This document shows positions 1-58,400 of a DNA stretch of 64,000 nucleotides, one piece after another. The position numbers and the translations under genes are program-made. Every line of letters starts with the position of its first letter. Position 1 is the stretch's first letter. Origin of the DNA: Anadara kagoshimensis (Eukaryota; Mollusca; Bivalvia; Arcoida; Arcidae); NCBI GenBank assembly GCA_021292105.1, contig CM037865.1, positions 25,999,027 to 26,063,026 of the forward strand, given 5' to 3'. The notes beneath the pieces were generated by a model, which was not told the origin of the DNA, did no database searches, and saw nothing but the letters and a program-made list of their open reading frames with translations.

Positions 1-45
1 CACTTTTACTGGTTCCCTTGGGTGGCTTTTACAGGTTTAACTGTA
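1..45. mobile_element. Right end of a family A inverted-repeat element (MITE)
   Basis: The segment holds TTTTACTGGTTCCCTTGGG, then GGTGGCTTTT and a terminal ACAGGTTTAACTGTA. This matches the right half of the family A copies at 33867-34047 and 56868-56941. The left half lies outside the window. Confidence 0.6.
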
Positions 46-139
46 CCATAATTTTAAGAAATACTGTCTGGGCATTCCTCTTGTTTTTCCAAAAATTTTA
101 CATTAAATGATACTTCACCATGCTTTGCATTCACAAGGT

Positions 140-222: not shown

Positions 223-412
223 GAAAAGCTGTGTTTATATGGATATATGTTTCGAGAACTCTGGCGAGTTTTCTTCAAAACACGTTTGGTGATTATGACA
301 GTACATTTCTTCCAGCAACAATTATTTTATTTCAATCACCTTGATCATGTCATACAGAATGTATGTATCTGGGTAACCAGTTTTGGGGATTAAACCTGCA
401 GTTTTGTTCATA

Positions 413-598
413 ATGCTGTAAACATGGTTATTTTTTACATGGTGGAAATTTTCGTGAATAGGAGAAAATTGAAAAAATTTGCCCCTCAAGAAGCAAGATT
501 GGATGAAATTGTGAAAATAACTCCATCACGAAATACCAACAAAATGATTTCGTGAAAATTACTACTTTTGAAAAATTAATAAACATGTTTACAGTATC
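413..598. mobile_element. Family B inverted-repeat element (MITE)
   Basis: The left end CTGTAAACATGGTTATTTT faces a right end AAACATGTTTACAGTAT, its inverted copy. The arms also pair around GAAATTTTCGTG and CACGAAAT. The same family makes up part of each monomer of the array at 2391-18010 and recurs at 35789-36012 and 39283-39509. A TA next to each end suggests a Tc1/mariner-type target, which is inference. Confidence 0.6.
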
Positions 599-620
599 TG
601 AATACTATACCAACATCTAA

Positions 621-2390: not shown

Positions 2391-2400
2391 AATCTCTAAT

Positions 2401-2484
2401 ACAGTCAAACCTGTCTATAAAGGTCACATAAGGGAACCAGCAAGAGTGGTCTTTATGGGCAGGTAGCCCTTACAGGTTTAATCG
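2401..2484. mobile_element. Family A MITE embedded in monomer 1
   Basis: The left arm ACAGTCAAACCTGTCTATAA is partly complementary to the right arm GGCAGGTAGCCCTTACAGG. One copy sits at the start of every monomer. Diverged copies lie outside the array at 31753-31914, 33867-34047 and 56868-56941, so the family was mobile independently of the array. Confidence 0.65.
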
Positions 2485-2667
2485 ATTGGTTTCTGTTCTC
2501 GGATACATAGGCTATTGCCACTATGTTTTAAGCCACAAATTGTTATGTCCCAGTAAGGATATTTTTCTTAATACAGAAGCAGTCAGGTCTGAAACAGTAC
2601 AGGAACCATTTAAGAATAAACACAGGTTTAATCTAAGAAAGCAAATCGAATCTGTCAAGATTAATAA

Positions 2668-2884
2668 CATGTATACTGTAACGTGAAAATTTTTCTGTGG
2701 TCAAAATTTTTGCTAATTTTGCAATTGAAATAAAAAGCAAGAAATGTACCACCTCCTGAGAATTAAGTCAAGTCAATTTTCATATGCTTTGTATCGCAAT
2801 GGGCAAAATCACCTAAATAACCCCTTTGCGAAATGCCAATAACCAAGATTTCACCAAAATAACCATGTTTACAGTATTGCATTT
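2668..2884. mobile_element. Family B element embedded in monomer 1
   Basis: The left end is TATACTGTAACGTG (TATACTGTAAACGTGG in later monomers). The right end is AATAACCATGTTTACAGTAT. The inverted ends match the stand-alone copy at 413-598. One copy is present per monomer. Confidence 0.6.
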
Positions 2885-3102
2885 ATACCTATCCTGGTTA
2901 TCCAATAAAATGGTTTTTCCTTGGTCGTCCTGTTCATCTGCCTGGTTACATCCTCTAGATCCTGAAGAGCTGGCCTACTACTAGAAATCACAACCACAGA
3001 CATTAGTTGCAATCAAAAACAAATGATTTATTATGATATAAGTGAAGAAATCCTTTGACTGGGAGAGCATTTTTGCTCTGCTAAAGTTGGTCACCATAAA
3101 AA

Positions 3103-3660
3103 GGTGGCGACGGCAAGACACTTCTGAATGCATAAGGCTGTGTCCAACTCTATCGCCAACATTCGGTGGCGATGGTGGGACACCCCTGAATGCATAAGAA
3201 TGTGTCGAACCTTGTCACCACAATATGGTGACATTGTTCTACATCTAGTGCCTGTGATGGGGTGGCGACGGTTTGACACCTCTGAATGCATAAGGCTGTG
3301 CCCAACGCTATCGCCACAATCTGGTGGCGATGGTGGGACACCCCTGAATGCATAAGACTGTGTCAAACCTTGTCACTGAAAATTCATGGCATGGTTGCAC
3401 ATTTTGTCCCCATCACAGGGTGGCGACGGTCTGACACCTCTGAATGCATAAGGCTGTGCCCAATGCTATCGCCACAAGATGGTGGCGATGCTGGAACACC
3501 CCTGAATGCATAAGACTGTATCAAACCTTGTCGCCATAATCAGACACCCCTGAATGCATAAGGCTGTGCCGACAGATGTCACCACAATCTAGTTGTGATA
3601 GATTGTGGTGATGGTCGAACACCCCTGAATGCATGAGGGTGCCCAAATAGTGTTGCCACT
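3103..3660. repeat. Block of eight hairpin units in monomer 1, with a 158-bp super-period
   Basis: GAATGCATAAG (GAATGCATGAG in the last unit) begins at 3126, 3188, 3284, 3346, 3442, 3504, 3552 and 3627. The spacing is 62, 96, 62, 96, 62, 48, 75, so the first six units are three copies of a 158-base dimer. Each unit has a left arm such as GGTGGCGACGGTTTGACAC and a right arm such as GTGTCAAACCTTGTCGCC that can pair, placing GAATGCATAAG in the loop. The block recurs in every monomer. Confidence 0.85.
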
Positions 3661-6600
3661 TTCAAGCGAACCATGAAGAAACACGACTGCTTCATTCTCT
3701 ATGGATTGATATGGTTACTTTCCCCAGGTGGATCCATCTGTTGTCTTCATCTGTGCTGGTCCAGGTTCATCTGTAGTCCTAATCCATTGGCATCTGGTTC
3801 ATCTGTAATCCTCTTGGTGTGGTGCCCATGGGGTCCATTGTCCAGGTTCCTATGTAAAAAGAAAAGGAAGTTAAAATCTAATACAGTCAAACCTGTCTAT
3901 AAAGGTCACATAAGGGAACCAGTAAGAGTGGTCTTTATGGGCAGGTAGCCCTTACAGGTTTAATCGATTGCTTTCTGTTCTCAGATACATAGGCTATTGC
4001 CACTATGTTTTAAGCCACAAATTGATATGTCCCAGTAAGGATATTTTTCTTAATACAGAAGCAGTCAGGTCTGAAACAGTACAGGAACCATTTAAGAATA
4101 AACACAGGTTTAATCTAAGAAAGCAAAATCGAATCTGTCAAGATTAATAACATGTATACTGTAAACGTGGAAATTTTTCTGTGGTCAAAATTTTTGCTAA
4201 TTTTGCAAATTGAAATAAAAAGCAAGAAATGTACCACCTCCTGAGAATTAAGTCAAGTCAATTTTCATATGCTTTGTATCGCAATGGGCAAAATCACCTA
4301 AATAACCCCTTTGCGAAATGCCAATAACCAAGATTTCACCAAAATAACCATGTTTACAGTATTGCATTTATACCTATCCTGGTTATCCAATAAAATGGTT
4401 TTTCCTTGGTCGTCCTGTTCATCTGCCTGGTTACATCCTCTAGATCCCGAAGAGCTGGCCTACTACTAGAAATCACAACCACAGACATTAGATGCAATCA
4501 AAAACAAATGATTTATTATGATATAAGTGAAGAAATCCTTTGACTGGGAGAGCATTTTTGCTCTGCTAAAGTTGGTCACCATAAAAGGTGGCGACGGTAA
4601 GACACTTCTGAATGCATAAGGCTGTGTCCAACTCTATCGCCAACATTCGGTGGCGATGGGGGACACCCCTGAATGCATAAGAATGTGTCGAACCTTGTCA
4701 CCACAATATGGTGACATTGTTCTACATCTAGTGCCTGTGATGGGTGGCGACGGTTGACACCTCTGAATGCATAAGGCTGTGCCAACCTATCGCCACAATC
4801 TGTGGCGATGGTGGGACACCCCTGAATGCATAAGACTGTGTCAAACCTTGTCACTGAAAATTCATGGCATGGTTGCACATTTTGTCCCCATCACAGGGTG
4901 GCGACGGTCTGACACCTCTGAATGCATAAGGCTGTGCCCAATGCTATCGCCACAAGATGGTGGCGATGCTGACACCCCTGAATGCATAAGACTGTATCAA
5001 ACCTTGTCGCCATAATCAGACACCCCTGAATGCATAAGGCTGTGCCGACAGATGTCACCACAATCTAGTTGTGATAGATTGTGGTGATGGTCGAACACCC
5101 CTGAATGCATGAGGGTGTGCCCAAATAGTGTTGCCACTTTCAAGCGAACCATGAAGAAACACGACTGCTTCATTCTCTATGGATTGATATGGTTACTTTC
5201 CCCAGGTGGATCCATCTGTTGTCTTCATCTGTGCTGGTCCAGGTTCATCTGTAGTCCTAATCCATTGGCATCTGGTTCATCTGTAATCCTCTTGGTGTGG
5301 TGCCCATGGGGTCCATTGTCCAGGTTCCTATGTAAAAAGAAAAGGAAGTTAAAATCTAATACAGTCAAACCTGTCTATAAAGGTCACATAAGGGAACCAG
5401 TAAGAGTGGTCTTTATGGGCAGGTAGCCCTTACAGGTTTAATCGATTGCTTTCTGTTCTCAGATACATAGGCTATTGCCACTATGTTTTAAGCCACAAAT
5501 TGATATGTCCCAGTAAGGATATTTTTCTTAATACAGAAGCAGTCAGGTCTGAAACAGTACAGAACCATTTAAGAATAAACACAGGTTTAATCTAAGAAAG
5601 CAAATCGAATCTGTCAAGATTAAAATGTATACTGTAAACGTGGAAATTTTTCTGTGGTCAAAATTTTTGCTAATTTTGCAAATTGAAATAAAAAGCAAGA
5701 AATGTACCACCTCCTGAGAATTAAGTCAAGTCAATTTTCATATGCTTTGTATCGCAATGGGCAAAATCACCTAAATAACCCCTTTGCGAAATGCCAATAA
5801 CCAAGATTTCACCAAAATAACCATGTTTACAGTATTGCATTTATACCTATCTGGTTATCCAATAAAATGGTTTTTCCTGGTCGTCCTGTTCATCTGCCTG
5901 GTTACATCCTCTAGATCCCGAAGAGCTGGCCTACTACTAGAAATCACAACCACAGACATTAGATGCAATCAAAAACAAATGATTTATTATGATATAAGTG
6001 AAGAAATCCTTTGACTGGGAGAGCATTTTTGCTCTGCTAAAGTTGGTCACCATAAAAAGGTGGCGACGGTAAGACACTTCTGAATGCATAAGGCTGTGTC
6101 CAACTCTATCGCCAACATTCGGTGGCGATGGTGGGACACCCCTGAATGCATAAGAATGTGTCGAACCTTGTCACCACAATATGGTGACATTGTTCTACAT
6201 CTAGTGCCTGTGATGGGGTGGCGACGGTTTGACACCTCTGAATGCATAAGGCTGTGCCCAACCCTATCGCCACAATCTGGTGGCGATGGTGGGACACCCC
6301 TGAATGCATAAGACTGTGTCAAACCTTGTCACTGAAAATTCATGGCATGGTTGCACATTTTGTCCCCATCACAGGGTGGCGACGGTCTGACACCTCTGAA
6401 TGCATAAGGCTGTGCCCAATGCTATCGCCACAAGATGGTGGCGATGCTGGAACACCCCTGAATGCATAAGACTGTATCAAACCTTGTCGCCATAATCAGA
6501 CACCCCTGAATGCATAAGGCTGTGCCGACAGATGTCACCACAATCTAGTTGTGATAGATTGTGGTGATGGTCGAACACCCCTGAATGCATGAGGGTGTGC

Positions 6601-8199
6601 CCAAATAGTGTTGCCACTTTCAAGCGAACCATGAAGAAACACGACTGCTTCATTCTCTATGGATTGATATGGTTACTTTCCCCAGGTGGATCCATCTGTT
6701 GTCTTCATCTGTGCTGGTCCAGGTTCATCTGTAGTCCTAATCCATTGGCATCTGGTTCATCTGTAATCCTCTTGGTGTGGTGCCCATGGGGTCCATTGTC
6801 CAGGTTCCTATGTAAAAAGAAAAGGAAGTTAAAATCTAATACAGTCAAACCTGTCTATAAAGGTCACATAAGGGAACCAGTAAGAGTGGTCTTTATGGGC
6901 AGGTAGCCCTTACAGGTTTAATCGATTGCTTTCTGTTCTCAGATACATAGGCTATTGCCACTATGTTTTAAGCCACAAATTGATATGTCCCAGTAAGGAT
7001 ATTTTTCTTAATACAGAAGCAGTCAGGTCTGAAACAGTACAGGAACCATTTAAGAATAAACACAAAGCAAAATCGAATCTGTCAAGATTAATAACATGTA
7101 TACTGTAAACGTGGAAATTTTTCTGTGGTCAAAATTTTTGCTAATTTTGCAAATTGAAATAAAAAGCAAGAAATGTACCACCTCCTGAGAATTAAGTCAA
7201 GTCAATTTTCATATGCTTTGTATCGCAATGGGCAAAATCACCTAAATAACCCCTTTGCGAAATGCCAATAACCAAGATTTCACCAAAATAACCATGTTTA
7301 CAGTATTGCATTTATACCTATCCTGGTTATCCAATAAAATGGTTTTTCCTTGGTCGTCCTGTTCATCTGCCTGGTTACATCCTCTAGATCCCGAAGAGCT
7401 GGCCTACTACTAGAAATCACAACCACAGACATTAGATGCAATCAAAAACAAATGATTTATTATGATATAAGTGAAGAAATCCTTTGACTGGGAGAGCATT
7501 TTTGCTCTGCTAAAGTTGGTCACCATAAAAAGGTGGCGACGGTAAGACACTTCTGAATGCATAAGGCTGTGTCCAACTCTATCGCCAACATTCGTAGGCG
7601 ATGGTGGGACACCCCTGAATGCATAAGAATGTGTCGAACCTTGTCACCACAATATGGTGACATTGTTCTACATCTAGTGCCTGTGATGGGGTGGCGACGG
7701 TTTGACACCTCTGAATGCATAAGGCTGTGCCCAACGCTATCGCCACAATCTGGTGGCGATGGTGGGACACCCCTGAATGCATAAGACTGTGTCAAACCTT
7801 GTCACTGAAAATTCATGGCATGGTTGCACATTTTGTCCCCATCACAGGGTGGCGACGGTCTGACACCTCTGAATGCATAAGGCTGTGCCCAATGCTATCG
7901 CCACAAGATGGTGGCGATGCTGGAACACCCCTGAATGCATAAGACTGTATCAAACCTTGTCGCCATAATCAGACACCCCTGAATGCATAAGGCTGTGCCG
8001 ACAGATGTCACCACAATCTAGTTGTGATAGATTGTGGTGATGGTCGAACACCCCTGAATGCATGAGGGTGTGCCCAAATAGTGTTGCCACTTTCAAGCGA
8101 ACCATGAAGAAACACGACTGCTTCATTCTCTATGGATTGATATGGTTACTTTCCCCAGGTGGATCCATCTGTTGTCTTCATCTGTGCTGGTCCAGGTTC

Positions 8200-11100
8200 A
8201 TCTGTAGTCCTAATCCATTGGCATCTGGTTCATCTGTAATCCTCTTGGTGTGGTGCCATGGGTCCATTGTCCAGGTTCCTATGTAAAAAGAAAAGGAAGT
8301 TAAAATCTAATACAGTCAAACCTGTCTATAAAGGTCACATAGGGAACCAGTAAGAGTGGTCTTTATGGGCAGGTAGCCTTACAGGTTTAATCGATTGCTT
8401 TCTGTTCTCAGATACATAGGCTATTGCCACTATGTTTTAAGCCACAAATTGATATGTCCCAGTAAGGATATTTTTCTTAATACAGAAGCAGTCAGGTCTG
8501 AAAGTACAGGAACCATTTAAGAATAACACAGGTTTAATCTAAGAAAGCAAAATCGAATCTGTCAAGATTAATAACATGTATACTGTAACGTGGAAATTTT
8601 TCTGTGGTCAAAATTTTGCTAATTTTGCAAATTGAAATAAAAAGCAAGAAATGTACCACCTCCTGAGAATTAAGTCAAGTCAATTTCATATGCTTTGTAT
8701 CGCAATGGGCAAAATCACCTAAATAACCCCTTTGCGAAATGCCAATAACCAAGATTTCACCAAAATAACCATGTTTACAGTATTGCATTTATACCTATCC
8801 TGGTTATCCAATAAAATGGTTTTCCTTGGTCGTCCTGTTCATCTGCCTGGTTACATCCTCTAGATCCCGAAGAGCTGGCCTACTACTAGAAATCACAACC
8901 ACAGACATTAGATGCAATCACAAAACAAATGATTTATTATGATATAAGTGAGAAATCCTTTGACTGGGAGAGCATTTTTGCTCGCTAAGTTGGTCACCAT
9001 AAAAAGGTGGCGACGGTAAGACACTTCTGAATGCATAAGGCTGTGCCAACTCTATCCCAACATTCGTGGCGATGGTGGACACCCTGAATGCATAAGAATG
9101 TGTCGAACCTTGTCACCAAATATGGTGACATTGTTCTACACTAGTGCCTGTGATGGGGTGGCGACGGTTTGACCCTCTGAATGCATAAGGCTGTGCCCAA
9201 CCCTATCGCCACAATCTGTGGCGATGGTGGGACACCCCTGAATGCATAAGACTGTGTCAAACTTGTCACTGAAAATTCATGGCATGGTTGCACATTTTGT
9301 CCCCATCACAGGGTGGCGACGGTCTGACACCTCTGAATGCATAAGGCTGTGCCCAATGCTACCCACAAGATGGTGGCGATGCTGGTACACCCCTGAATGC
9401 ATAAGACTGTATCAAACCTTGTCGCCATAATCAGACCCCCCTGAATGCATAAGGCTGTGCCGACAGATTCACCACAATCTAGTTGTGATAGATTGTGGTG
9501 ATGGTCGAACCAACCCCTGAATGCATGAGGGTGTGCCCAATAGTGTTGCCACTTTCAAGCGAACCATGAAGAACACGACGCTTCATTCTCTATGGATTGA
9601 TAGTGGTTACTTTCCCCGGTGTGGATACTCCATCTGTTGTCTTCATCTGTGCTGGTCCGGTTATCTGTATCCTAATCCATATGGCATCTGGTTCATCTGT
9701 AATCCTCTTGGTGGGCCCATGGGGTCCATTGTCCAGGTTCCATGTAAAAGAAAAGGAAGTTAAAATCTAATACAGTCAAACCTGTCTCTAAAGGTCACAT
9801 AAGGGAACCAGTAAGAGTGGTCTTTATGGGCAGGTAGCCCTACAGGTTTAATCGATGCTTTCTGTTCTCAGATACATTGGCTATTGCCACTATGTTTTAA
9901 GCCACAAATTGATGTCCCAAGGATATTTTCTTAATACAGAAGCAGTCAGGTCTGAAACAGTACAGGAACCATTTAGAGAATAAACACAGGTTTAATCTAA
10001 GAAAGCAAAATCGAATCTGTCAATTAATAACATGTATACTGTAACGTTGAAATTTTCTGTGGTCAAATTTTTTGCTAATTTTCAAATTGAAAAAAAAGCA
10101 AGAAATGTACACCTCCTGAGAATTAGTCAAGTCAATTTTCATTGCTTTGTATCGCAATGGGCAAATCACCTAAATAACCCCTTTGCGAAAATGCCAATAA
10201 CAAGATTTCACCCAAAATAACCATGTTTACAGTATTGCATTTATACTATCCTGTTATCCAATAAAATGGTTTTTCCTTGGTCGTCCTGTTCATCTGCTGG
10301 TTACATCCTCTAGATCCGAAGAGCTGGCCTACTACTAGAAATCACAACCACAGACATAGATGCAATCAAAAACAAATGATTTATTATGATATAAGTGAAG
10401 AAATCCTTTGACTGGGAGAGCATTTTTGCTCTGCTAAAGTTGGTCACCATAAAAAGGTGGCGGACGGTAAGACACTTCTGAAATGCATAAGGCTGTGCCA
10501 ACGCTATCGCCAACATTCGTGGCGATGGTGGACACCCCTGAATGCATAAGAATGTGTCGAACCTTGTCACCACAATATGGTGACATTGTTTTCTACATCT
10601 AGTGCCTGTGATGGGTGGCGACGGTTTTGACACCTCTGAATGCATAAGGCTGTGCCCACCTAATCGCCACAATCTGGTGGCGATGGTGGGACACCCCTGA
10701 ATGCATAAGACTGTGTCAAACCTTGTCACTAAAATTCATGCATGGTTGCACATTTTGTCCCATCACAGGGTGGCGACGTCTGACACCTCCTGAATGCATA
10801 AGGCTGTGCCCAATGCTATCCGCCACAAGATGGTGGCGATGCTGGAACACCCCTGAATGCATAAGACTGTATCAAACCTTGTCGCCATAATCAGGGACAA
10901 CCCTGAATGCATAAGGCTGTGCCGACAGATGCACCACAATCTAGTTGTGATAGATTGTGTGATGGTCGAACACCCCTGAATGCATGAGGTTGTGCCCAAA
11001 TAGTGTTGCCACTTTCAAGCGAACCATGAAGAAACACGACTGCTTCATTCTCTATGGATTGATATGGTTACTTTCCCCAGGTTGATCCATTTTCTGTTGT

Positions 11101-12400
11101 CTTCATCTGTGCTGGTCCAGGTTCATCTGTAGTCCTAATCCATTGGCATCTGGTTCATCTGTAATCCTCTTGTGTGGTGCCCATGGGGTCCATTGTCCAG
11201 GTTCCTATGTAAAAAGAAAAGGAAGTTAAAATCTAATACAGTCAAACCTGTCTATAAAGGTCACATAAGGGAACCAGTAAGAGTGGTCTTTATGGGCAGG
11301 TAGCCCTTACAGGTTTAATCGATTGCTTTCTGTTCTCAGATACATTGGCTATTGCCACTATGTTTTAAGCCACAAATTGATATGTCCCAGTAAGGATATT
11401 TTTCTTAATACAGAAGCAGTCAGGTCTGAAACAGTACAGGAACCATTTAAGAATAAACACAGGTTTAATCTAAGAAAGCAAAATCGAATCTGTCAAGATT
11501 ATAACATGTATACTGTAAACTTGGAATTTTTCTGTGGTCAAATTTTGCTAATTTTGCAAATTGAAATAAAAAGCAAGAAATGTACCACCTCCTGAGAATT
11601 AAGTCAAGTCAATTTTCATATGCTTTGTATCGCAATGGGCAAAATCACCTAAATAACCCCTTTGCGAAATGCCAATAACCAAGATTTCACCAAAATAACC
11701 ATGTTTACAGTATTGCATTATACCTATCCTGGTTATCCAATAAATGGTTTTTCCTTGGTCGTCTGTTCATCTGCCTGGTCATCCTCTAGATCCCGAGAGC
11801 TGGCCTACTACTAGAAATCACAACCACGACATTAGATGCATCAAAAACAAATGATTTATTATGATATAGTGAAGAAATCCTTTGACTGGGAGAGCATTTT
11901 TGCTCTGCTAAAGTTGGTCACCAAAAAAGGTGGCGACGGTAAGACCTTCTGACTGCATAAGGCTGTGTCCAACTCTATCGCCAACATTCGTCGATGGTGG
12001 GACACCCTGAATGCATAAGAATGTGTCGAACCTTGTCCCACAATATGGTGACATTGTTCTAATCTAGTGCCTGTGATGGTGGCGACGGTTTGACACCTCT
12101 GAATGCATAAGGCTGTGCCCAACCCTATCGCCACAATCTGGTGGCGATGGTGGGACACCCCTGAATGCATAAGACTGTGTCAAACCTTGTCACTGAAAAT
12201 TCATGGCATGGTTGCACATTTTGTCCCCACAGGGTGGCGACGGTCTGACACCTCTGAATGCATAAGGCTGTGCCCAATGCTATCGCCACAAGATGGTGGG
12301 ATGCTGGAACACCCTGAATGCATAAGACTGTATCAAACCTTGTCGCCATAATCAGACACCCCTGAATGCATAAGGCTGGTGCCGACAGATGTCACCACAA
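8200..12400. repeat. Indel-rich part of the array
   Basis: The monomers here carry many single-base losses and gains that are absent from the flanking ones. Examples are GAAGAACACGACGCTTC at about 9567, TTCTGAAATGCATAAGG at about 10475 and CACCTCCTGAATGCATA at about 10785. Monomers before 8200 and after 12800 are nearly clean. This fits poor consensus quality inside a long repeat at least as well as true decay. Confidence 0.7.
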
Positions 12401-15400
12401 TCTAGTTGTGATAGATTGTGGTGATGGTCGAACACCCCTGAATGCATGAGGGTGTGCCCAAATAGTGTTGCCACTTTCAAGCGAACCATGAAGAACCGAC
12501 TGCTTCATTCTCTATGGATTGATATGGTTACTTTCCCCAGGTGGATCCATCTGTTTGTCTTCATCTGTGCTGGTCCAGGTTCATCTGTAGTCCTAATCCA
12601 TTGGCATCTGGTTCATCTGTAATCCTCTTGGTGTGGTGCCCATGGGGTCCATTGTCCAGGTTCCTATGTAAAAGAAAAGGAAGTTAAAATCTAATACAGT
12701 CAAACCTGTCTATAAAGGTCACATAAGGGAACCAGTAAGAGTGGTCTTTATGGGCAGGTAGCCCTTACAGGTTTAATCGATTGTTTCTGTTCTCGGATAC
12801 ATAGGCTATTGCCACTATTTTTAAGCCACAAATTGATATGTCCCAGTAAGGATATTTTTCTTAATACAGAAGCAGTCAGGTCTGAAACAGTACAGGAACC
12901 ATTTAAGAATAAACACAGGTTTAATCTAAGAAAGCAAAATCGAATCTGTCAAGATTAATAACATGTATACTGTAAACGTGGAAATTTTTCTGTGGTCAAA
13001 ATTTTTGCTAATTTTGCAAATTGAAATAAAAAGCAAGAAATGTACCACCTCCTGAGAATTAAGTCAAGTCAATTTTCATATGCTTTGTATCGCAATGGGC
13101 AAAATCACCTAAATAACCCCTTTGCGAAATGCCAATAACCAAGATTTCACCAAAATAACCATGTTTACAGTATTGCATTTATACCTATCCTGGTTATCCA
13201 ATAAAATGGTTTTTCCTTGGTCGTCCTGTTCATCTGCCTGGTTACATCCTCTAGATCCCGAAGAGCTGGCCTACTACTAGAAATCACAACCACAGACATT
13301 AGATGCAATCAAAAACAAATGATTTATTATGATATAAGTGAAGAAATCCTTTGACTGGGAGAGCATTTTTGCTCTGCTAAAGTTGGTCACCATAAAAAGG
13401 TGGCGACGGTAAGACACTTCTGAATGCATAAGGCTGTGTCCAACTCTATCGCCAACATTCGGTGGCGATGGTGGGACACCCCTGAATGCATAAGAATGTG
13501 TCGAACCTTGTCACCACAATATGGTGACATTGTTCTACATCTAGTGCCTGTGATGGGGTGGCGACGGTTTGACACCTCTGAATGCATAAGGCTGTGCCCA
13601 ACCTATCGCCACAATCTGGTGGCGATGGTGGGACACCCCTGAATGCATAAGACTGTGTCAAACCTTGTCACAAATTCATGGCATGGTTGCACATTTTGTC
13701 CCCATCACAGGGTGGCGACGGTCTGACACCTCTGAATGCATAAGGCTGTGCCCAATGCTATCGCCACAAGATGGTGGCGATGCTGGAACACCCCTGAATG
13801 CATAAGACTGTATCAAACCTTGTCGCCATAATCAGACACCCCTGAATGCATAAGGCTGTGCCGACAGATGTCACCACAATCTAGTTGTGATAGATTGTGG
13901 TGATGGTCGAACACCCCTGAATGCATGAGGGTGTGCCCAAATAGTGTTGCCACTTTCAAGCGAACCATGAAGAAACACGACTGCTTCATTCTCTATGGAT
14001 TGATATGGTTACTTTCCCCAGGTGGATCCATCTGTTGTCTTCATCTGTGCTGGTCCAGGTTCATCTGTAGTCCCAATCCATTGGCATCTGGTTCATCTGT
14101 AATCCTCTTGGTGTGGTACCCATGGGGTCCATTGTCTAGGTTCCTATGTAAAAAGAAAAGGAAGTTAAAATCTAATACAGTCAAACCTGTCTATAAAGGT
14201 CACATAAGGGAACCAGTAAGAGTGGTCTTTATGGGCAGGTAGCCCTTACAGGTTTAATCGATTGCTTTCTGTTCTCAGATACATAGGCTATTGCCACTAT
14301 GTTTTAAGCCACAAATTGATATGTCCCAGTAAGGATATTTTTCTTAATACAGAAGCAGTCAGGTCTGAAACAGTACAGGAACCATTTAAGAATAAACACA
14401 GGTTTAATCTAAGAAAGCAAAATCGAATCTGTCAAGATTAATAACATGTATACTGTAAACGTGGAAATTTTTCTGTGGTCAAAATTTTTGCTAATTTTGC
14501 AAATTGAAATAAAAAGCAAGAAAAGTACCACCTCCTGAGAATTACGTCAAGTCAATTTTCATATGCTTTGTATCACAATGGACAAAATCACCCAAATAAC
14601 CCCTTTGCGAAATGCCAATAACCAAGATTTCACCAAAATAACCATGTTTACAGTATTGCATTTATACCTATCCTGGTTATCCAATAAAATGGTTTTTCCT
14701 TGGTCGTCCTGTTCATCTGCCTGGTTACATCCTCTAGATCCTGAAGAGCTGGCCTACTACTAGAAATCACAACAACAGACATTAGTTGCAATCAAAAACA
14801 AATGATTTATTATGATACAAGTGAAGAAATCCTTTGACTGGGAGAGCATTTTTGCTCTGCTAAAGTTGGTCACCATAAAAAGGTGGCGACGGTAAGACAC
14901 TTCTGAATGCATAAGGCTGTGCCCAACGCTATCGCCAACATTCGGTGGCGATGGTGGGACACCCCTGAATGCATAAGAATGTGTCGAACCTTGTCACCAC
15001 AATATGGTGACATTGTTCTACATCTAGTGCCTGTGATGGGGTGGCGACGGTTCGACACCTCTGAATGCATAAGGCTGTGCCCAACCCTATCGCCACAATC
15101 TGGTGGCGATGGTGGGACACCCCTGAATGCATAAGACTGTGTCAAACCTTGTCACTACAAATTCATGGCATGGTTTCACATTTTGTCCCCATCACAGGGT
15201 GGCGACGGTCTGACACCTCTGAATGCATAAGGCTGTGCCCACTGCTACCGCCACAAGATGGTGGCGGTGCTGGTACACCCCTGAATGCATAAGACTGTAT
15301 CAAACCTAGTCGCCATAATCAGACACCCCTGAATGCATAAGGCTGTGCCGACAGATGTCACCACAATCTAGTTGTGATAGATTGTGGTGATGGTCGAACA

Positions 15401-15479
15401 CCCCTGAATGCATGAGGGTGTGCCCAAATAGTGTTGCCACTTTCAAGCGAACCATGAAGAAACACGACGGCTTCATTCT

Positions 15480-17060
15480 CTATGGATTGATATGGTTACT
15501 TTCCCCATGGTGGCCACATGGATACTTTGTCCAGGTGGGTCCATCTGTTGTCTTCATCTGAGCTGGTCCAGGTTCATCTGTAGTCCTAATCCATTGGCAT
15601 CTGGTTCATCTGTAATCCTCTTGGTGTGGTGCCCATGGGGTCCATTGTCCAGGTTCCTATGTAAAAAGAAAAGGAAGTTAAAATCTAATACAGTCAAACC
15701 TGTCTATAAAGGTCACATAAGGGAACCAGTAAGAGTGGTCTTTATGGGCAGGTAGCCCTTACAGGTTTAATCGATTGGTTTCTGTTCTCGGATACATTGG
15801 CTATTGCCACTATATTTTAAGCCACAAATTGTTATGTAGCAGCAAGGATATCTTTCTTAATACAGAAGCAGTCAGGTCTGAAACAGTACAGGAACCATTT
15901 AAGAATAAACACAGGTTTAATCTAAGAAAGCAAAATCGAATCTGTCAAAATTAATAACATGTATACTGTAAACTTGGAAATTTTTGTGTGGTCAAAATTT
16001 TTGCTAATTTTGCAAATTGAAAAAAAAAGCAAGAAAAGTACCACCTCCTGAGAATTACGTCAAGTCAATTTTCATATGCTTTGTATCACAAGACAAAATC
16101 ACCCAAATAACCCCTTTGCGAAATGCCAATAACCAAGATTTCACCAAAATAACCATGTTTACAGTATTGCATTTATACCTATCCTGGTTATCCAATAAAA
16201 TGGTTTTTCCTTAGTCGTCCTGTTCATCTGTCTGGTTACATCCTCTAGATCCTGAAGAGCTGGCCTACTACTAGAAATCACAACAACAGACATTAGTTGC
16301 AATCAAAAACAATGATTTATTATGATACAAGTGAAGAAATCCTTTGACTGGGAGAGCATTTTTGCTCTGCTAAAGTTGGTCACCATAAAAAGGTGGCGAC
16401 GGTAAGACACTTCTGAATGCATAAGGCTGTGCCCAACGCTATCGCCAACATTCGGTGGCGATGGTGGGACACCCCTGAATGCATAAGAATGTGTCGAACC
16501 TTGTCACCACAATATGGTGACATTGTTCTACATCTAGTGCCTGTGATGGGGTGGCGACGGTTCGACACCTCTGAATGCATAAGGCTGTGCCCAACCCTAT
16601 CGCCACAATCTGGTGGCGATGGTGGGACACCCCTGAATGCATAAGACTGTGTCAAACCTTGTCACTACAAATTCATGGCATGGTTTCACATTTTGTCCCC
16701 ATCACAGGGTGGCGACGGTCCGACACCTCTGAATGCATAAGGCTGTGCCCACTGCTACCGCCACAAGATGGTGGCGATGCTGGTACACCCCTGAATGCAT
16801 AAGACTGTATCAAACCTTGTCGCCATAATCAGACACCCCTGAATGCATAAGGCTGTGCCGACAGATGTCACCACAATCTAGTTGTGATAGATTGTGGTGA
16901 TGGTCGAACACCCCTGAATGCATGAGGGTGTGCCCAAATAGTGTTGCCACTTTCAAGCGAACCATGAAGAAACACGACGGCTTCATTCTCTATGGATTGA
17001 TATGGTTACTTTCCCATGGTGGCCACATGGATACTTTGTCCAGGTGGGTCCATCTGTTGT
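15480..17060. repeat. Longer monomer variant at the right side of the array
   Basis: At about 15505-15540 and 17013-17047 the spacer has an extra ~33 bases including GGCCACATGGATACTTTGTC. Monomers to the left lack it. This explains the 1513- and 1509-base intervals. Confidence 0.8.
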
Positions 17061-18097
17061 CTTCATCTGTGCTGGTCCAGGTTCATCTGTAGTCCTAATC
17101 CATTGGCATCTGGTTCATCTGTAATCCTCTTGGTGTGGTGCCCATGGGGTCCATTGTCCAGGTTCCTATGTAAAAAGAAAAGGAAGTTAAAATCTAATAC
17201 AGTCAAACCTGTCTATAAAGGTCACATAAGGGAACGAGTAAGAGTGGTCTTTATGGGCAGGTAGCCCTTACAGGTTTAATCGATTGGTTTCTGTTCTCGG
17301 ATACATTGGCTATTGCCACTATATTGTAAGCCACAAATTGTTATGTACCAGCAAGGATATCTTTCTTAATACAGAAGCAGTCAGGTCTGAAACAGTACAG
17401 GAACCATTTAAGAATAAACACAGGTTTAATCTAAGAAAGCAAAATCGAATCTGTCAAAATTAATAACATGTATACTGTAAACTTGGAAATTTTGTGTGGT
17501 CAAAATTTTGCTAATTTTGCAAATTGAAAAAAAAAGCAAGAAAAGTACCACCTCCTGAGAATTACGTCAAGTCAATTTTCATATGCTTTGTATCACAAGA
17601 CAAAATCACCCAAATAACCGCTTTGCTAAATGCCAATAACCAAGATTTCACCAAAATAACCATGTTTACAGTATTGCATTTATACCTATCCTGGTTATCC
17701 AATAAAATGGTTTTTCCTTGGTCGTCCTGTTCATCTGCCTGGTTACATCCTCTAGATCCTGGAGAGCTGGTTATCCACACTGGCCTACTACTAGAAATCA
17801 CGATCATTATTTGCAATCAAAAACAAATGATTTATCATGATATAAGTGGAGAAATCCTTGACTGGGAGAGCATGTCTGCTCTGCTAAAGTTGGTCACCAT
17901 AAAAAGGTGGCGACGGTAAGACACTTCTGAATGCATAAGGTTGTGCCCAACGCAATCGCCAACATTCGGTGGCGATGGTGGAACACACCTGAATGCATAA
18001 GAATGTGTCAAGTTTCAAGGTCTTTGAAGGCAACATGCAGATTCTTTTACTCTCTGATGAAGATGATGATAATGATGATGCAAGTCGACTGCTTGTA

Positions 18098-30017: not shown

Positions 30018-33000
30018 ATGCTTGTTTACCTGTTTTCAGCCATTTCAGCTGCAGTGTTGCTGAAATGGTTCTTACAACCAGATCCACGACCAAAGGCTGG
30101 AATATATTACCAGAAAAACAAATGGTTCTTTATCAAATATGCATTCTTTAGACTTATTTTGTGGCACAGAAAAAGACAAAACCAGAATATGAAGTCTGTT
30201 TCATCAGGTGAAAATGCAGGGTACGGAATGAGATCTAGGAGTTCGCCAGAAGATATGGATAAACTTCAAGAACTACCAGCCGACCAACCAAAAGTATGTC
30301 GGTAATTATATCACTAATTATATAGAGTATTATTACATAATGTATAGAAAATTGAAACAGACTATAGTTTGGCCTATTGATTAGCTCACCTGTTCAAAGG
30401 TCACCTGGGCCCTTAAGATTACCATTGTGTTAAAGGGTTTTTTTTAAAATATGTTTTTTTAGTAGATTAAAATTAAGTTTGAATAGTCATTTAAAATAGG
30501 TTACTGTAACACTTAATAAAATCAATTAAAACTTAATGAAATTTGTTTTTCATTAATGTTTAAAATTTAATTAAGACCACGGGTACCTGTGTTGTGAAAT
30601 TGCATATTCACAGATTTTCAAGTAATCATGACCAAATACATGTATTGAATTTTATCAAATTGTTTTTAAATTAACTTTAGAGATGTTGTTTTTATGAATG
30701 TTATGCCACTAAAAATATTTGAACAGTATTTAAATATTTTATTCATAAATTGGCAGTTTGAGAAAAACTATTTGGAAGTGTATCAGCATGGTCAGACACT
30801 TCTAACATACAAAACATAATTTATCAGCATGGTCAGACACTTCTAACATACAAAACATAATTTATCCTCATTTTTCAATGGTTCAACCCCAGTTGGGTCT
30901 GCCAAGACTTGAAAATAGGTAGTTACTGTTCTTCACCTGTAAGCATTCTGCATTTCTAAATGAAAGTCACGGTGCCTTCGAAAGAAAACTTAAAAACTGA
31001 TGTCATGTGCCACAGCAAGCATGGCATGTTAAAGAATCCTCCCTGCACATTGCCCTGGATACACTGCAAATGTAAAATTTCCTGCCACTTCACACCTATA
31101 GCTGGTGATGTCTAGATATAAGTGAAATATTCTTGACTGGGACGTATTTCCTATCAATCAATCTTCAGAGGTTCAAAAATTTCGAAATTACAAAAGTCTG
31201 AAGTCCAGGACCTATTGATATTACTGTTACCCATTTTTGCACGAAAAAATACTTATGGTAACATGATAAAAAAACTTTAGTTATTTTAACTCTTGATGAT
31301 TTTGGATGAATTGCTGTTCAATTGAAAGATATCTTCATAGTCAAAGGGAGATAACTTCAATTAAATAAGTGCTGAAATTGCAATCTTTACAACAACATAT
31401 ATTTTCTATATACGTGTACATGTATATTGTCATAACCTTATGATTTCAATGCGGTAAATTTTCTCTTGAGTATACTTCAAACACTTTTTTTTTTTAAAAA
31501 ATCGAAACTATGAACTGGTATTAAATGCAACGATTTAAATCTTATCACAAGTTCATCATGTATATGTACATTATAAATTTCTACCTTTTAGGCTGTAGAT
31601 GCTGTTTATTTTAATGGTGGTAACAAAGATGGACAGTATATAATGGCTGCCACAGCTCGTCGACAGAATAACATTGTACAGACTATTCTATATCTCAGGG
31701 TAAGTTATTATTTTATGTTCTAGTAAGATAGTAACTTTGTCATCTTTTAAACAGTCAATCCTGTTTATAAAGGCCAAGGGAACCAGTAAAAGTGGCCTTT
31801 GAGGGCAGGTGGCCTTCATATACAGGTTCAAATAATATGAATAAAGAACAATTGGATGGCCTTTATAAGCAGGTGTCCCTTATATAGAGGGGATTTTAAG
31901 AGGGGTGTGACTGTATTGCATTTAAAGCTACGTAAATATATATAAGCATTATTTAAGGTGAACTAGCTTGATTTGTAAATTTTTAATTCCCATTTTGCAT
32001 GGCGTTTCATGCTTTATATTCTCAAAGTCATTACAACCAGGCAAAGCTGTTTTGTTGTAAATAAACCCTAAAGAATACTTTGTCATGTCATTATACTTGT
32101 TCGAAAATAAGATAAGACACTAGCTTGCTTGCTCATTAAAAGCATCTTCAGAATGGACACAAGCTTGATTGCTCATTAGGGCTTCTTTCAGAATGGACAC
32201 AAGCTAGCTTGCTCATTAAGGCTTCTTGTAAGTATCTATTCAGGTTTGCTTCTAGACAGCTTTGACCTACAGTACATTTAAATATGGTATTAAATATTTT
32301 ACCAGTTTTCTTTTACAACACTATTATTATTACTTTATTACTTTGAATATCAATATTCATCAGTGTACATTGTATCTAAAACATGTAAACAGTGGTACAA
32401 AATGTACAGTGTTTTACAACATGTGTTATATATCATATCATACCAAGGAGAATAGTACAAGGAGAATAGTACAAGGAGAATAGTACAATATGATTAAGAT
32501 TGCTGGTTAGAACGCAGTGAAAATGATTTTCTTAAGAACATACCAATATTACAAAGTTCTTTAACATTATTGACACTTAATAATTGTAATAATTTAAACA
32601 TACTCAGCTTTTGTCTAGATGGATGTTTTGGAATACAATTCTTCATCAGTAGTGCAACTATGAAGCTAAAATGTTTTTCCAAAGATGTTGACAAGATACC
32701 TGAAGAACCAAAATATATATGAGAATTATTTTTAGAATTACTTGCGCTAAAAGATAGAAATGGAAAGAGTAACAGGTTGCTTGCTGTCAATAAAGTCCAC
32801 ATTTCATTGGTACCATATGTTGTTAATTTTTAAGATATTTGGGAATTCAAAGTATCATTTTGAAGATCACTTCAAGCTTATAACATTGCTGAGTTAATGT
32901 TGAGGAAAATCTTAGTTAAGAAATTATTGTGGAACTGCCGGGGCCAGATTTTATTAATGTTTTTTATGTTTAGCTTCCAGGTATTGGAATGTTGGAGATG

Positions 33001-33579: not shown

Positions 33580-36500
33580 TAAAATGTTTTGACAATTATT
33601 GCATTCTCTCTTTCACCAATACTAAAATGTTTGACAAATATTGCATTCTCTCTCTATCTCTCTATTTATATTTATTTATTTACTTACAGAAATGTAACTA
33701 AAGATACAGAAGTGGATGTAGAATTCAGTTTGAATTGGTTAGCTTTTACCAAATATTTTGATTTTGACACAGATCTTCATCCTGCAGCAATGGCTGATGC
33801 CATCTGTAGAGAAAAATGGTCCAGAGAATATTTTGATAACTTGAAAAGGTATTGTTAAAATAGAATACAGTCCAACCTGCCTTAAAGGCCACCTCTATAT
33901 AAGGCCCATCTGCTTTTAAAGGCCAGTAAACCTTTATCCCAATTGCTCTTTATTTATGTTTTTGAGCCTCGATAGAAGGGCCACCTGCCCATAAAGAGCA
34001 GTTTTACTGGTTCCCTTTGGTGGCTTTTATAGACAGTTTTGACTGTACTTGGTTTTCACAATTTTAAATTGTTAGTAACCACATAACGGTATCCAAAAGT
34101 CTTTTAAAGTATTTTCTAATAAATTTCCTAAAATACCTCTATGTTACTTTACGAAATAATTTGTTAGAAATTAGTAGTCAAATGCTACCAGGAATTGAAA
34201 CAGGAAAAATGAACATGGATATTTCATCTCTTACATTATTTCAAAAATGGTTATTATGTGTCAATTCTTGAATGATTTACTTTATTTTAACATGTCATTC
34301 TTGCATACTTGTAATAACTATACAGACATTGGACATGTATGTCAGGAGGTGCTTACCTTTCCGGGTGGAAGTTCATGTGTTTTACTTACGGTAATTTGCC
34401 AGCTTTCAAAGATTTTACTTTGCTTTTGGGAGTAGGTCTTGGACATGGATTTGGTGTGTAAATTTTTAATTATGCCATTCAATTGACCCAGAGTTATGAG
34501 TGCCTGTGACTTAATTTTTATTTATGATGCATCCATCATTACATTTATACTTGTATAGTAACTGATTTAATGAATAAATGATACATATTTTCAGGGCCCA
34601 TCAAACTCATTATGAACAGTTTGGACAAATCAGTGGTAAAATAAAAATCTCTGGAGTAAGTGACCCTGTCAATCTGGATGTAGATGGAGTAAGGGACCAT
34701 TCATATGGTAAGAAAATTTTACAGAGTCTTAATAGTGCAGTGTTTCCCCTGTAAAGAGAGGTTACTTGATATAATTGTCCTTCCTGCTTTTAGTCTGCCA
34801 GACCAGATCACAGCATTCCCTCCGCCTTGGTTCGAATAGAACTTGGAATGGATTCTGGAAGAAAGTTTGTCAGGTTGCTTGAAAAATCAATGGTTTTCTC
34901 TCGACACTCTTGTTTCCTCCACTGTCTCTGAACTGACTGCCTTGTTATAAGTGAAATAATCTTGTAAAACTCCATTATTCCACTCAGTTTGCCAGAGATG
35001 GATAAATAAAATGTTCTGTTCTCGGGCCTAGGTGCCTTCACTGCCCAGGTTCAAATTCTATTTGGGTCAGATCCTAGTGCGAGAAAGTTTTTGAATTTAA
35101 TCACTGAAGGTCAGTAGTTTTCTCTAGGCATTCTGATTTTCTCCACCATCCTAGAACTGACCACCTTAGGTGAAAAGAATCTGACCTAGGTTACCTATAC
35201 TGAGACATATAACCCATTACTACACTTGTTCTCGGTTCTAAAATGTGTGAATACAGAACATTTACTGTATAAGAAGAAAAATTCGTATGGAAAAAATATT
35301 CCAGATTTTCACAGGTTACTCTTGTATCGCTAATATATCTTCTCAGAATTTTTGTTTTATGCACCCGTGGTAGACTTTCCTAAAAGTCGGAAACGTGAAA
35401 ATTTCTTACCACGAAATAATTAAGAAAGTCAAAACTGCAAAAGTTTTCTACCGCTAATGTTTCTTCTTATACAGTATATGTTAAAAAGTCTTCTAAAAAG
35501 CTAGGCCTTATACATTTTAAATGTAGTGTCATTAAAATAAGTTGTATCTAGTCTGTATTCAATTAAAAAATATTTTAGTCGTGAACCCCAATTGAATTTC
35601 ACATATTTTACATAATCAATACATCATAATGTTTGTGTGGCACATTTTGAAAAATGTTGAAGTTGCAAATTGATGGAATAACATTTTTACAGAAAGTGTG
35701 AACTGATGCTATTCAATTTGCATATACAAATGTAAGGATATTAAGTGACACACTGGCACTGGGCAACTGAAAAGAATCTGTATAAGATACTGTAAAGGTG
35801 ATTATTTCCGTGGGGTAAAAATTTTGCAATTTCTGAACTCTGTTATTTCATGTGTTGTAACTTTTGTGTAAACAATATAAGTGAGTGTATATTCTATACA
35901 TTATGATGGAAATCTGTGTGGTAGAAATTTTCGAGTGGGTAAAATTTTTGCGGTAATTTTTTTTAGCATGAAATAAGCAAAAATATTACCCAAGTGAAAA
36001 TTTCCTCATTACAGTAAGTTGTCAAGTTGTTCATGCGAATATTTTTCTATGTTTATTGTAGGCAATGTCCGAGACTGGAAGGATTTACATAGATATGCTA
36101 TACAGTACGCCACTCTGTCTGACAGAACAGCAGTATGTTTAGGAGTTATATGTATGCCAGTTACCATGTCAAGGTAGGCAGATAGTGATTTCTGTATAAA
36201 AAAGTTAAGTGTTTCCCACATGTACCACACAATATTGATATGGGAAAATGTCAGAATATGTGTACGGTATGTGATACAGTACCTCGGTGGCTAAGTGGAC
36301 TAAAGCCTGCATTTATGAATCAAAGTGCCTCTCACCACCTAGGTTCAAACCCAACTTGGGACAGTTCCTATTGTGAGATAATGTATCAGTTTATTAACTG
36401 AAGGTTGGTAGTGTTCTGTGGGCACTCCAGATTCCTCCACCATTCCAGAACTGGCCATCTTGGTTTTAGTGAAGAAATCCTGACTGAGGTGTTAAACACT

Positions 36501-55400: not shown

Positions 55401-58400
55401 TATGTTCCTTTCCTATCATAGATTGGACATTTGAGCTCATATTATTTTTAACAATTACATAGTTCTACAGATTACAGCTATAGTAACAATGCTAACCCAA
55501 TCTTAACACTAATTTTGGTATATTTCATTGTTAACCCATTCTTAACACTAATTTTGGTATATTTCATTGTTAACCCATTCTTAACACTAATTTTGGTATA
55601 TTTCATTGTTAACCCATTCTTAACACTAATTTTGGTATATTTCATTGTTAACCCATTCTTAACACTAATTTTGGTATATTTCATTGTTAACCCAATCTTA
55701 ACACTAATTTTGGTATATTTCATTGTTAACCCATTCTTAACACTAATTTTGGTATATTTCATTGTTAACCCATTCTTAACACTAATTTTGGTATATTTCA
55801 TTGTTAACCCAATCTTAACACTAATTTTGGTATATTTCATTGTTAACCCATTCTTAACACTAATTTTGGTATATTTCATTGTTAACCCATTCTTAACACT
55901 AATTTTGGTATATTTCATCTAACCCTCTACTCTGGTCATTTGTCATGACAATAACAGAGGCTGGAGTGTGAGTGACAAACTTTACCTGTCTGTGGTTGTT
56001 GTGCATTCATTCTCGGCATCTCACAGCATTCACACTTATTCAAAGCTGGATGGTTTAAGAATGTGCAGGCGGAACAATTCCACTGTTCACCATCGCCGTC
56101 TGAATCCCCTGACCCACTGGCTGCTGGCTGTGGGGGTGGGGGAGGAGGCACATGGTGGATTCTTGGTGGGATAGGTGGTGGAGCTACAAAAATAATGAGA
56201 AAATTATAAATTACATGATTAATACTCAATAAGCTTACTAGTTGACCTAAATCGAAAATTTGCTGTATCAAATATAGATAATACCAAAGTAAGCAAAACA
56301 AAATTTACAAATCTAAAACATGATTACATTATTTTGACCCTACTAAAATATGTTCACCTGTACTATTTCAAATTAGGTCAAGGTCACAAGACAATGTTAG
56401 TTTTAGCTTTCACTAAGAAGATGCCATGATAAGACATAATAGTTATAATCTTTCACTTAAGTTTCTCTTTAGTACCATCATAAATGATATATAAAGTATG
56501 GATATATATGATAAGAAGGATTTTCCGTCATTCTTTTGAGCAATTAATGTATGCAAATTAAAAACATTCATTATTCATATTTAGTTGGTTGCTAGTACAT
56601 TCGTCTATAATGTAGCAGATGACATTGCAAATCACTGTCCATTACACTGGTACTGTGCAAAAAAGTATTCATATTTAGAAAATGTGCCCACTTAATCTAT
56701 CAACACAACAGTAATCAGGTTCAAGATAATTTTTTTTCATGCTACTTGCCAAGAAATAAGGTGTCACATCCTCGACCTAAAGTAAGTGTATCTTGCCACT
56801 AGAAAAAGATGTTATTTTGAGATTTCTTCATAGTAATTGTACAGGTTCAGAGTATATAGAACCTGCTGACCTGTATATAAGGACCACCTGTACCTTTTAC
56901 TGGTTCCCTTAGGTGGCCTTTATGGACAGGTTTGATTGTACTTTAAGATTTTTCATGGTAACAATACTTACTATCTCTAGTAGGTGTTTGTACAGGTTGA
57001 GAGTATATAGAACCCCGTTGACCTGTATTCATATTTTTATAAAAATTCTGTTGTTCTAATGGATCTAATACTCCTAAAGGTGCTGTAAGTATAAAGACAA
57101 GAAAAAATAAATTAAGATCAATGTCACGCTGAAATTTTCTCTCATTCTGATTTGAAAGAAATCAAAAACTTCTACTGATATCATTTAAACTTGTATCAGT
57201 GTTTTTCATAGGGGCTTTTGCGACCAAGTGCCAGGTTATTGATTACAGTGTATAGATAGATTAGAAAGATAGTTTGCTTTTTATAAGCCAGTGTTTTTTT
57301 CACCTAGGTATTCTAGTTTCCCCCACAATCTTTGAACTGACTAACTTGATAAGAGGTGAAAGAATCTTGGCCAGTGCATAAAACACTATTACCCCATTGT
57401 TTTTTCTCATGAATTTGTACACAAAAATGTACATGTATTTTGCAGCATCAAATTTCACAATATCTAACCATTTTAATGTAATTATCTGCCTATCACTGGG
57501 TATATAAGAATTCTATTTCTTTGCACACAATTTTCAGAATTTAAAATATTCACAATTCATAAATATAAACATTTTGTATATCACATATATTGTGAAGATT
57601 AAACTGCTAATGTGTACTTTGAATCATGTGTGTATGAACTGCCTTTTTGGCCAAACTTTTAGTATTTGCATGCTGCAGAACACTATTGCAGGAAACCTGA
57701 CAAGAGAGTTTAATGTCTCAGTCTAGATTTTTCACTTAAATAGAAATCCAGAAAACCATGCAGACTGACAAACCTTCTAACACTAGGATCTCCAAGTGGG
57801 ATTTAATCGTAGGCAGTGATCAGACATATCATGGTCCATAAATCACTAATTTAGGCCTCTCAGCCAGGAAAGTACCAAACTGAAAAGGCTTTTTAATTTT
57901 TTATCCATTTCAAATAAAGTTGAGAAATGAAGATTTACTCTTTAGTCAAATTCATTAAGTTATACAGAGGTAGTCACACTGGTAATTTACAGAAGTGACC
58001 ACCTCCATATAAATGAAAAATCTTGTCTGAGGCAAGACACCATTACTTCACTCATAATATGACTGATAAAAAGCATTAATGAAGCTTTAATTTCCAAACT
58101 GCTTTAACTGATACGCTCAATTAATCTACTTGATAATTCCAACTGTGTTTTCTTGAATACCACAGATAACTCCTTATCTGATGCAGATTTTCCCTCTTTC
58201 TTTCCAATTTGAAAAAATGAATACTGGTAATCCAAAATTTTACAGGCAAACATGATGCCATTTATACTTCAAAATTATCGAAACTTCACATATAACTATA
58301 AAATAAATTTACTTTGTCCATTATTAAACATATCTATTTCTCTAGTAAACATCTGTATATCTGTTTGAAGTCGTAAATTTTTTTCTCGAAGTTTGGAGAC

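Follow-up and report, generated by a model that had tools for sequence, protein, structure and literature searches.

The sequence from 2396 to 18010 of the window (i.e., the whole 64-kb stretch of DNA that was analysed) is a head-to-tail tandem array of 15.6 kb, which very probably represents a composite, transposon-derived satellite DNA, i.e., a local and neutral array of variable copy number that most likely has no selected function. Its unit joins one end of a dispersed element (element A), a second element with its own terminal inverted repeats (element B) and a block of palindromic sub-repeats.

Layout of the array

The array consists of ten full units (1482, 1478, 1480, 1471, 1460, 1466, 1458, 1481, 1513, and 1509 bp, in order from 2396) and one partial unit (817 bp) that ends at 18010. 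The preliminary description had proposed ten intervals of 1458–1513 bases, and the measured lengths span precisely this range (1458–1513 bp), with the coordinates given there being right within a few bases. When a single unit was used as blastn query against the window, all ten full units were covered end to end, and nhmmer located A as well as B in 11/11 units, the partial unit included. The majority consensus unit measures 1487 bp, and unit 3, which differs from it by one substitution and seven deleted bases, was taken as the representative unit.

Unit starts, forward strand: 2396, 3878, 5356, 6836, 8307, 9767, 11233, 12691, 14172, 15685, 17194
5356..6835, forward strand: unit 3 (1480 bp)
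5358..5442, forward strand: fragment of A in unit 3 (carries the 5′ terminus CAGTCAAACCTGTCTATAAAGG plus ~60 bp that follow it; a 3′ terminus was not matched)
5629..5835, forward strand: B in unit 3 (about 206 bp; 22-nt terminal inverted repeats, 86% complementary)
6059..6625, forward strand: palindrome (hairpin) block of unit 3 (567 bp, eight sub-repeats of ~57 bp)
6630..6835, forward strand: spacer 3 of unit 3

Spacer 3 is longer by about 26 bp in two of the units, with 26 inserted bases in unit 9 and 25 in unit 10. The G+C content within the array amounts to 0.423, vs. 0.313 in the left and 0.325 in the right flank, and the CpG observed/expected ratios are near-equal (0.41 in the array, 0.43 in the left flank, and 0.44 in the right flank). 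The right end of the array falls inside the second sub-repeat of a palindrome block. Moreover, the 7-bp motif TCTAATA, which is partly the TA target of A itself, occurs both in the left flank and at the unit junction. With the two strands taken together, there are 11 copies of it outside the array.

The array encodes nothing recognised. None of the listed ORFs of at least 140 aa lies in it, and the two array ORFs that were scanned against Pfam matched RGM_C (E 0.0052) and Gp45_2 (E 0.13) without reaching the curated cut-offs, upon which a coding role for the array was rejected. ARAGORN found no tRNA genes, and exact-pattern scans of the collections viral_contigs (two patterns) and genome_contigs (one pattern) yielded no match, which says little because these are described as holding viral, bacterial, and archaeal DNA.

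One end of A and an element B in every unit

Positions 1–92 of the consensus unit correspond to the 5′ end of A (i.e., TA-CAGTCAAACCTGTCTATAAAGG, then about 60 bp more), which may be a pogo- or Tc1-like element. Full-length A is 170–195 bp long, of which only the first ~85–88 bp are present in the unit, and with full-length A (31745–31926) as nhmmer query the unit matched element positions 4–88 only. The A of the unit is therefore a one-ended fragment, with only one of the two termini that a MITE would carry. The fixed order of A, B, hairpin block, and spacers that had been proposed was indeed found in 10/10 full units, with the amendment that A contributes only this first part and not a whole MITE.

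Elsewhere in the window, nhmmer recovered A four times, with two of these copies being full length and having both ends:

31746..31925, forward strand: full-length A (both termini; TA on the right side only)
33856..34049, reverse strand: full-length A (TA on both sides; starts TA-CAGTCAAAAC, ends GTTGGACTG-TA)
56868..56941, reverse strand: 5′ fragment of A (nhmmer E 3.6e-9)
1..46, reverse strand: 5′ terminus of A, cut by the window edge (nhmmer E 0.0054)

The full-length copies carry a second, inverted terminus and show the terminal inverted repeats and target duplication of a MITE. When the 19-mer A terminus was searched for with at most three mismatches, 15 matches were obtained vs. 0.02 expected, 11 of them within the array and the other 4 outside it. 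The pattern scan also gave a terminus-like A site at 53243 (three mismatches), for which nhmmer provided no support.

Element B is situated at positions 278–485 of the consensus unit. A diverged relative of B, with weak support, was found outside the array:

411..601, forward strand: diverged B relative (both termini recognisable)

Both of its 14-bp termini match with one mismatch each, in a terminus scan that returned 27 matches vs. 5.6 expected by chance, and nhmmer related it to B with an E of 0.0033 (relative as query) or 0.17–0.2 (B of the unit as query). The proposal that A and B also occur singly elsewhere in the window is consequently well founded for A, with its four places, and depends for B on this one weakly supported relative. 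Spacer 1 (about positions 141–213 of the unit) weakly matches 38444–38374 (E 0.0098) and, more weakly, 34962–34911 (E 0.12). The stretches 38374–38444 and 34911–34962 resemble each other, and may perhaps form a third dispersed family, of which spacer 1 would hold a fragment.

The unit had been described as a mosaic of MITEs, and pieces of A and B are indeed part of it. Together, however, they account for about 20% of the unit only (85–92 plus 206 of 1487 bp), and A is one-ended. Since a link to dispersed elements exists for these two parts only, it is unproved that most of the unit is of composite origin. A second copy of the composite unit was not found elsewhere in the 64-kb window, and the reading of the unit as a single transposon was rejected on the basis of this search, which was confined to the window.

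A block of paired palindromic sub-repeats

The palindrome block spans positions 711 to about 1285 of the unit, or about 39% of its length. In the consensus, sub-repeats 1–6 are arranged as three pairs that recur every 158 bp, and Tandem Repeats Finder reported a period of 153–158 bp in 9/10 full units, with 2.7–2.8 copies. Adjacent sub-repeats are largely reverse complements of each other: sub-repeat 1 matches the reverse complement of sub-repeat 2 at 45/54 aligned sites (score of 59 vs. 41 for the best of 500 shuffles), and the neighbour pairs 1–2, 3–4, 5–6, and 7–8 all beat their shuffles (4/4). As to self-palindromy, 3/8 sub-repeats (i.e., 1, 2, and 3) beat the best of 500 shuffles and one ties with it. 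Elsewhere in the window, the block and spacers 2 and 3 had no nhmmer match at an E of 1 or better.

This repeat structure bears on the possibility that the whole unit is one non-autonomous Helentron/HINE-type element, with the 158-bp palindrome pairs as its central repeats and the array resulting from rolling-circle transposition. The period of the block lies near the 160–180-bp monomers that dominate in C. gigas according to the accessible part of that study (PMC8268682), and a hairpin of ATGAAG/CTTCAT (6-bp stem, 11-nt loop) is present at unit position 1283, after the block, where the 3′ palindrome would lie. Nevertheless, the unit begins at the end of A, which also occurs alone, and the only short-motif run found in it is the 9-bp CTACTACTA, which precedes the block by about 120 bp. 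Moreover, 0 inverted 11-mers (with at most one mismatch) were found between spacers 1 or 2 and unit positions 1241–1487 (right of the block), vs. 0–3 in resampled controls, in a test restricted to these stretches, outside A, B, and the block. This Helentron reading is improbable in our view, and was rejected on the absence of subterminal inverted repeats from the spacers tested.

The block of unit 3 folds far better than its shuffles, with a folding energy of –265 kcal/mol on the forward strand (z –12.07) and –273.4 kcal/mol on the reverse strand (z –11.97), and 0/100 shuffles being as good. Folded as DNA, it reached a z of –12.78 (again 0/100 shuffles as good), while lone sub-repeats fold modestly (z –0.11 to –2.71 in 12 tests). 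Such a fold might be taken to mean that the array comprises genes for a structured non-coding RNA (i.e., a hairpin RNA or small-RNA precursor), the palindromes of which are under selection at the RNA level. However, the fold is equally strong on both strands and as DNA, which is what a DNA palindrome would give. Among the eight sub-repeats, which vary little, 0/12 tested pairs changed on both sides, and neither did any pair in the predicted consensus fold (0/9), so that the fold does not amount to evidence for an RNA product. The predicted stems of sub-repeats 1 vs. 3 and 2 vs. 4 are in different register, and it is the loop, not the stems, that is the least variable part. Finally, no Rfam family reached its gathering score in the window, and loose settings applied to one unit gave four matches with E values from 0.26 to 4.4. 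A structured RNA from the block is not shown; we consider the RNA-gene reading very improbable, and it was rejected for want of covariation and of an Rfam match at gathering score.

The eight sub-repeats have a common core ACACNNCTGAATGCATRAGNNTGT (invariant alignment columns). The 13-mer CTGAATGCATAAG has 70 exact matches in the window, all of them within the array, vs. 0.02 expected, and because both this 13-mer and the 19-mer A terminus far exceed expectation, chance is excluded for the array. The 13-bp core is identical in 7/8 consensus sub-repeats. When compared among eight units (1–4 and 8–11, of which unit 11 covers the first two cores only; the error-rich units 5–7 were omitted), 0/104 core columns were variable vs. 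69/1383 elsewhere (p = 0.013, for a class chosen post hoc), and the spacers inside the block varied as little as the core (1/115).

Between the consensus sub-repeat pairs 1 and 2, the hairpin differs at 14/119 sites and the spacer at 17/39 (Fisher p = 4.8e-5). This contrast looks like constraint on the hairpins, but it fails to hold among the units of the array. Differing sites in the hairpins vs. the rest of the unit numbered 11/451 vs. 24/1028 for units 1 and 10, 12/451 vs. 16/1031 for units 1 and 9, 5/101 vs. 16/702 for units 10 and 11, and 9/446 vs. 27/1029 for units 2 and 10, so that in these four unit pairs the hairpins as a whole are not clearly slower-evolving than the rest of the unit. 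The block could conceivably be a group of sites bound by a sequence-specific nuclear factor, in which the core around CTGAATGCATAAG would stay constant and the arms and spacers would drift, but we regard this as a doubtful proposition. If true, the satellite would serve, in the vicinity of a gene, as a platform for protein binding, be it as a chromatin organiser, a sponge, or a recombination site.

Divergence of the units and traces of exchange

Units 2, 3, 4, 7, and 8 are 1.4–6.2 substitutions per 1000 apart, and unit 1, at the left edge, is 6.8–9.6 per 1000 away from units 2–4, 7, and 8. Unit 11 differs from unit 10 by 26.2, from unit 9 by 37.3, and from the rest by 43.6–61.6 per 1000. In mid-array, unit 6 is 27.0–61.6 per 1000 away from all others, which is presumably due to sequence errors. 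Apart from this error-rich unit, the units at the right edge are the most divergent. The simplest reading is that the edges keep older sequence and that the middle was homogenised, in keeping with a published pattern in which array centres are better homogenised than the ends, as the accessible part of the source has it (PMC5615363). Nevertheless, the edge gradient is not clean, with unit 1 being close to the inner units and unit 6 far from all.

Diagnostic sites were defined as positions at which units 2, 3, 4, and 8 share one state and unit 10 has another. In unit 9, 10/10 of these sites have the inner state up to unit position 339, and 17/20 have the edge state from position 353 on, which places a switch inside B:

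14510..14524, forward strand: switch point of unit 9 from inner- to edge-type sequence (window coordinates derived from unit positions)

Judged from these sites, unit 9 is probably a recombinant, in which a crossover or conversion tract would have ended within about 14 bp inside B. Moreover, nine substitutions separate unit 1 from the inner units, and at 5/9 of these sites it agrees with at least two right-edge units. These variant patterns (i.e., the switch in unit 9 and the sharing between unit 1 and the right edge) therefore indicate that exchange between units shaped the array.

Sequence quality within the array

Three adjacent units stand apart by their deletions:

8307..12690, forward strand: error-rich units 5–7

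Units 5, 6, and 7 show 29, 28, and 23 deletion events, respectively, mostly of one base, vs. 0–7 in the other seven full units. Their deleted bases lie in homopolymer runs in 62/100 cases vs. a background of 48%, which is a mild preference. These units are likely unpolished long-read sequence, in a region where short reads cannot be placed, and this resemblance makes the copy number unsafe, as the number of mid-array units may err either way. It could be argued more radically that the assembler expanded or collapsed a few copies, and that the assembled array is not real. The deletion-rich units 5–7 are what unpolished long reads would lead one to expect, but unit-specific substitutions, the extra length of spacer 3 in units 9 and 10, and the graded divergence towards the right edge are not things that an assembler invents. 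We therefore hold an outright assembly artefact to be scarcely credible.

Gene neighbourhood and other repeats

The repeat types suggest that the host is a mollusc, probably a bivalve. An open frame at 55939–56304 (reverse strand) matches the TAB2/TAB3 zinc finger in solved structures (best E 8e-13), with the top six of 14 matches being TAB2 or TAB3. The array is about 38 kb away from this TAB2/TAB3-like exon. Centromeric satellites bind centromeric histone and form very long arrays; the present one measures 15.6 kb as assembled and has the exon at this distance. In a Pfam scan of 14 proteins (with one long frame submitted twice), the zinc finger (55936–56301) was the only match beyond those of the two array ORFs, and at 22.4 bits (E 7.4e-5) it stayed below the cut-off of 27. 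Upstream and on the same strand, a frame of 552 codons (61789–63444, reverse strand) without Pfam match may be another exon of the TAB2/TAB3-like gene. The zinc-finger frame is adjoined by a 39-bp minisatellite (55493–55918; 10.9 copies, 98% matches) that is open for 146–156 codons on both strands.

A second satellite-like array is present at 50827–52015 (145-bp period, 8.2 copies, 88% matches), which is not among the listed blastn matches of the 1.48-kb unit. Diverged copies of a dispersed repeat family occur at about 627–850 and near 145, 18100, 20620, 25600, 31000, and 39920. Its stretch 627–670 is one that we take to resemble a tRNA-derived head, perhaps of a SINE, and ARAGORN finds no tRNA. 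Finally, the stretches 53869–54115, 38596–38831, 35257–35482, and 1327–1404 match their own reverse complement (79–254 aligned columns, 61–73% identity), and are perhaps palindromic MITEs.

Origin of the array

What distinguishes a composite satellite is found in this array: a head-to-tail, non-coding monomer (ten full units and a partial one, with no listed ORF of at least 140 aa), monomer segments that match different transposons (A at four other places; B with its own terminal inverted repeats and a weak relative), and homogenisation within the array, to which unit 6 is the exception. A composite that was later amplified in tandem, as the preliminary description had it, is the best reading. 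Its idea of nested insertions, in contrast, is not borne out by the unit, where B follows A and neither is inside the other.

In the course of events that we propose, A and B would have inserted next to a palindromic repeat, or persisted there as remnants. The initial duplication could then have arisen through pairing at a short repeat such as TCTAATA, or else at the palindromes, through breakage, fork stalling, or template switching. Unequal crossing-over or gene conversion would subsequently have lengthened and homogenised the array. That the array ends inside a palindrome block fits breakage at palindromes and proves nothing.

Comparison with known systems

A text search with short sequence strings, which is a weak test, turned up only papers that appear unrelated and did not find the unit in print. 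Donax DTE is reportedly a satellite born from a MITE. The array differs from it, and from Xstir and miDNA4 of Xenopus, in that the repeat is tied to one MITE in each of those, whereas the monomer here combines two elements and a third block. The presence of MITE sequence within a tandem repeat is what it has in common with Xstir and miDNA4, as described in the available part of a review (PMC12628747). Palindrome-like monomers also have a precedent, in the form of a beetle satellite with a monomer of about 600 bp that is mentioned in the accessible portion of its source (PMC13081366).

Helentrons carry tandem repeats in C. gigas, as reported in the available parts of two studies (PMC7492417, PMC8268682). 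Among these elements, Cg_HINE of Crassostrea gigas resembles the present unit by its satellite-like internal tandem repeats and perhaps by its short palindrome, as far as its description is available (PMC7492417). In contrast to Cg_HINE, no subterminal inverted repeats were found in the tested spacers of the unit, and there is no microsatellite of the type described beside the block.

The closest likeness is to satellites in oysters, where the accessible part of a satellitome study defines a ‘Multiple TEs’ class of monomers whose segments match different transposons. In C. angulata, satellite monomers range from 28 to 8637 bp, five satellites are marked as ‘Multiple TEs’, and direct, inverted, or palindromic motifs are proposed to aid tandemisation (PMC11136912, in the same accessible part). 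A review names composite monomers as a class and gives a ‘transposon graveyard’ model, in which they are born from degraded elements in heterochromatin (PMC12628747). To the extent that both sources are available, the array is like these satellites in being tandem, in joining pieces of different transposons in a monomer (some of theirs being of kilobase size), and in its palindromic motifs, a kind that is named there as a helper (PMC12628747, PMC11136912). Unlike ‘transposon graveyard’ satellites, it shares the same 64 kb with intact single copies of A, and it lies 38 kb from a gene exon, not in proven heterochromatin.

With the parent element nearby, edge units that appear older, a mapped switch point, and an exon within 38 kb, this is a handy locus for studying the birth of a monomer, and one suited to testing whether composite satellites need heterochromatin. 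It leaves knowledge in kind unchanged, as the array fits the known class of composite satellites, of which it is a clean example and not a new system.
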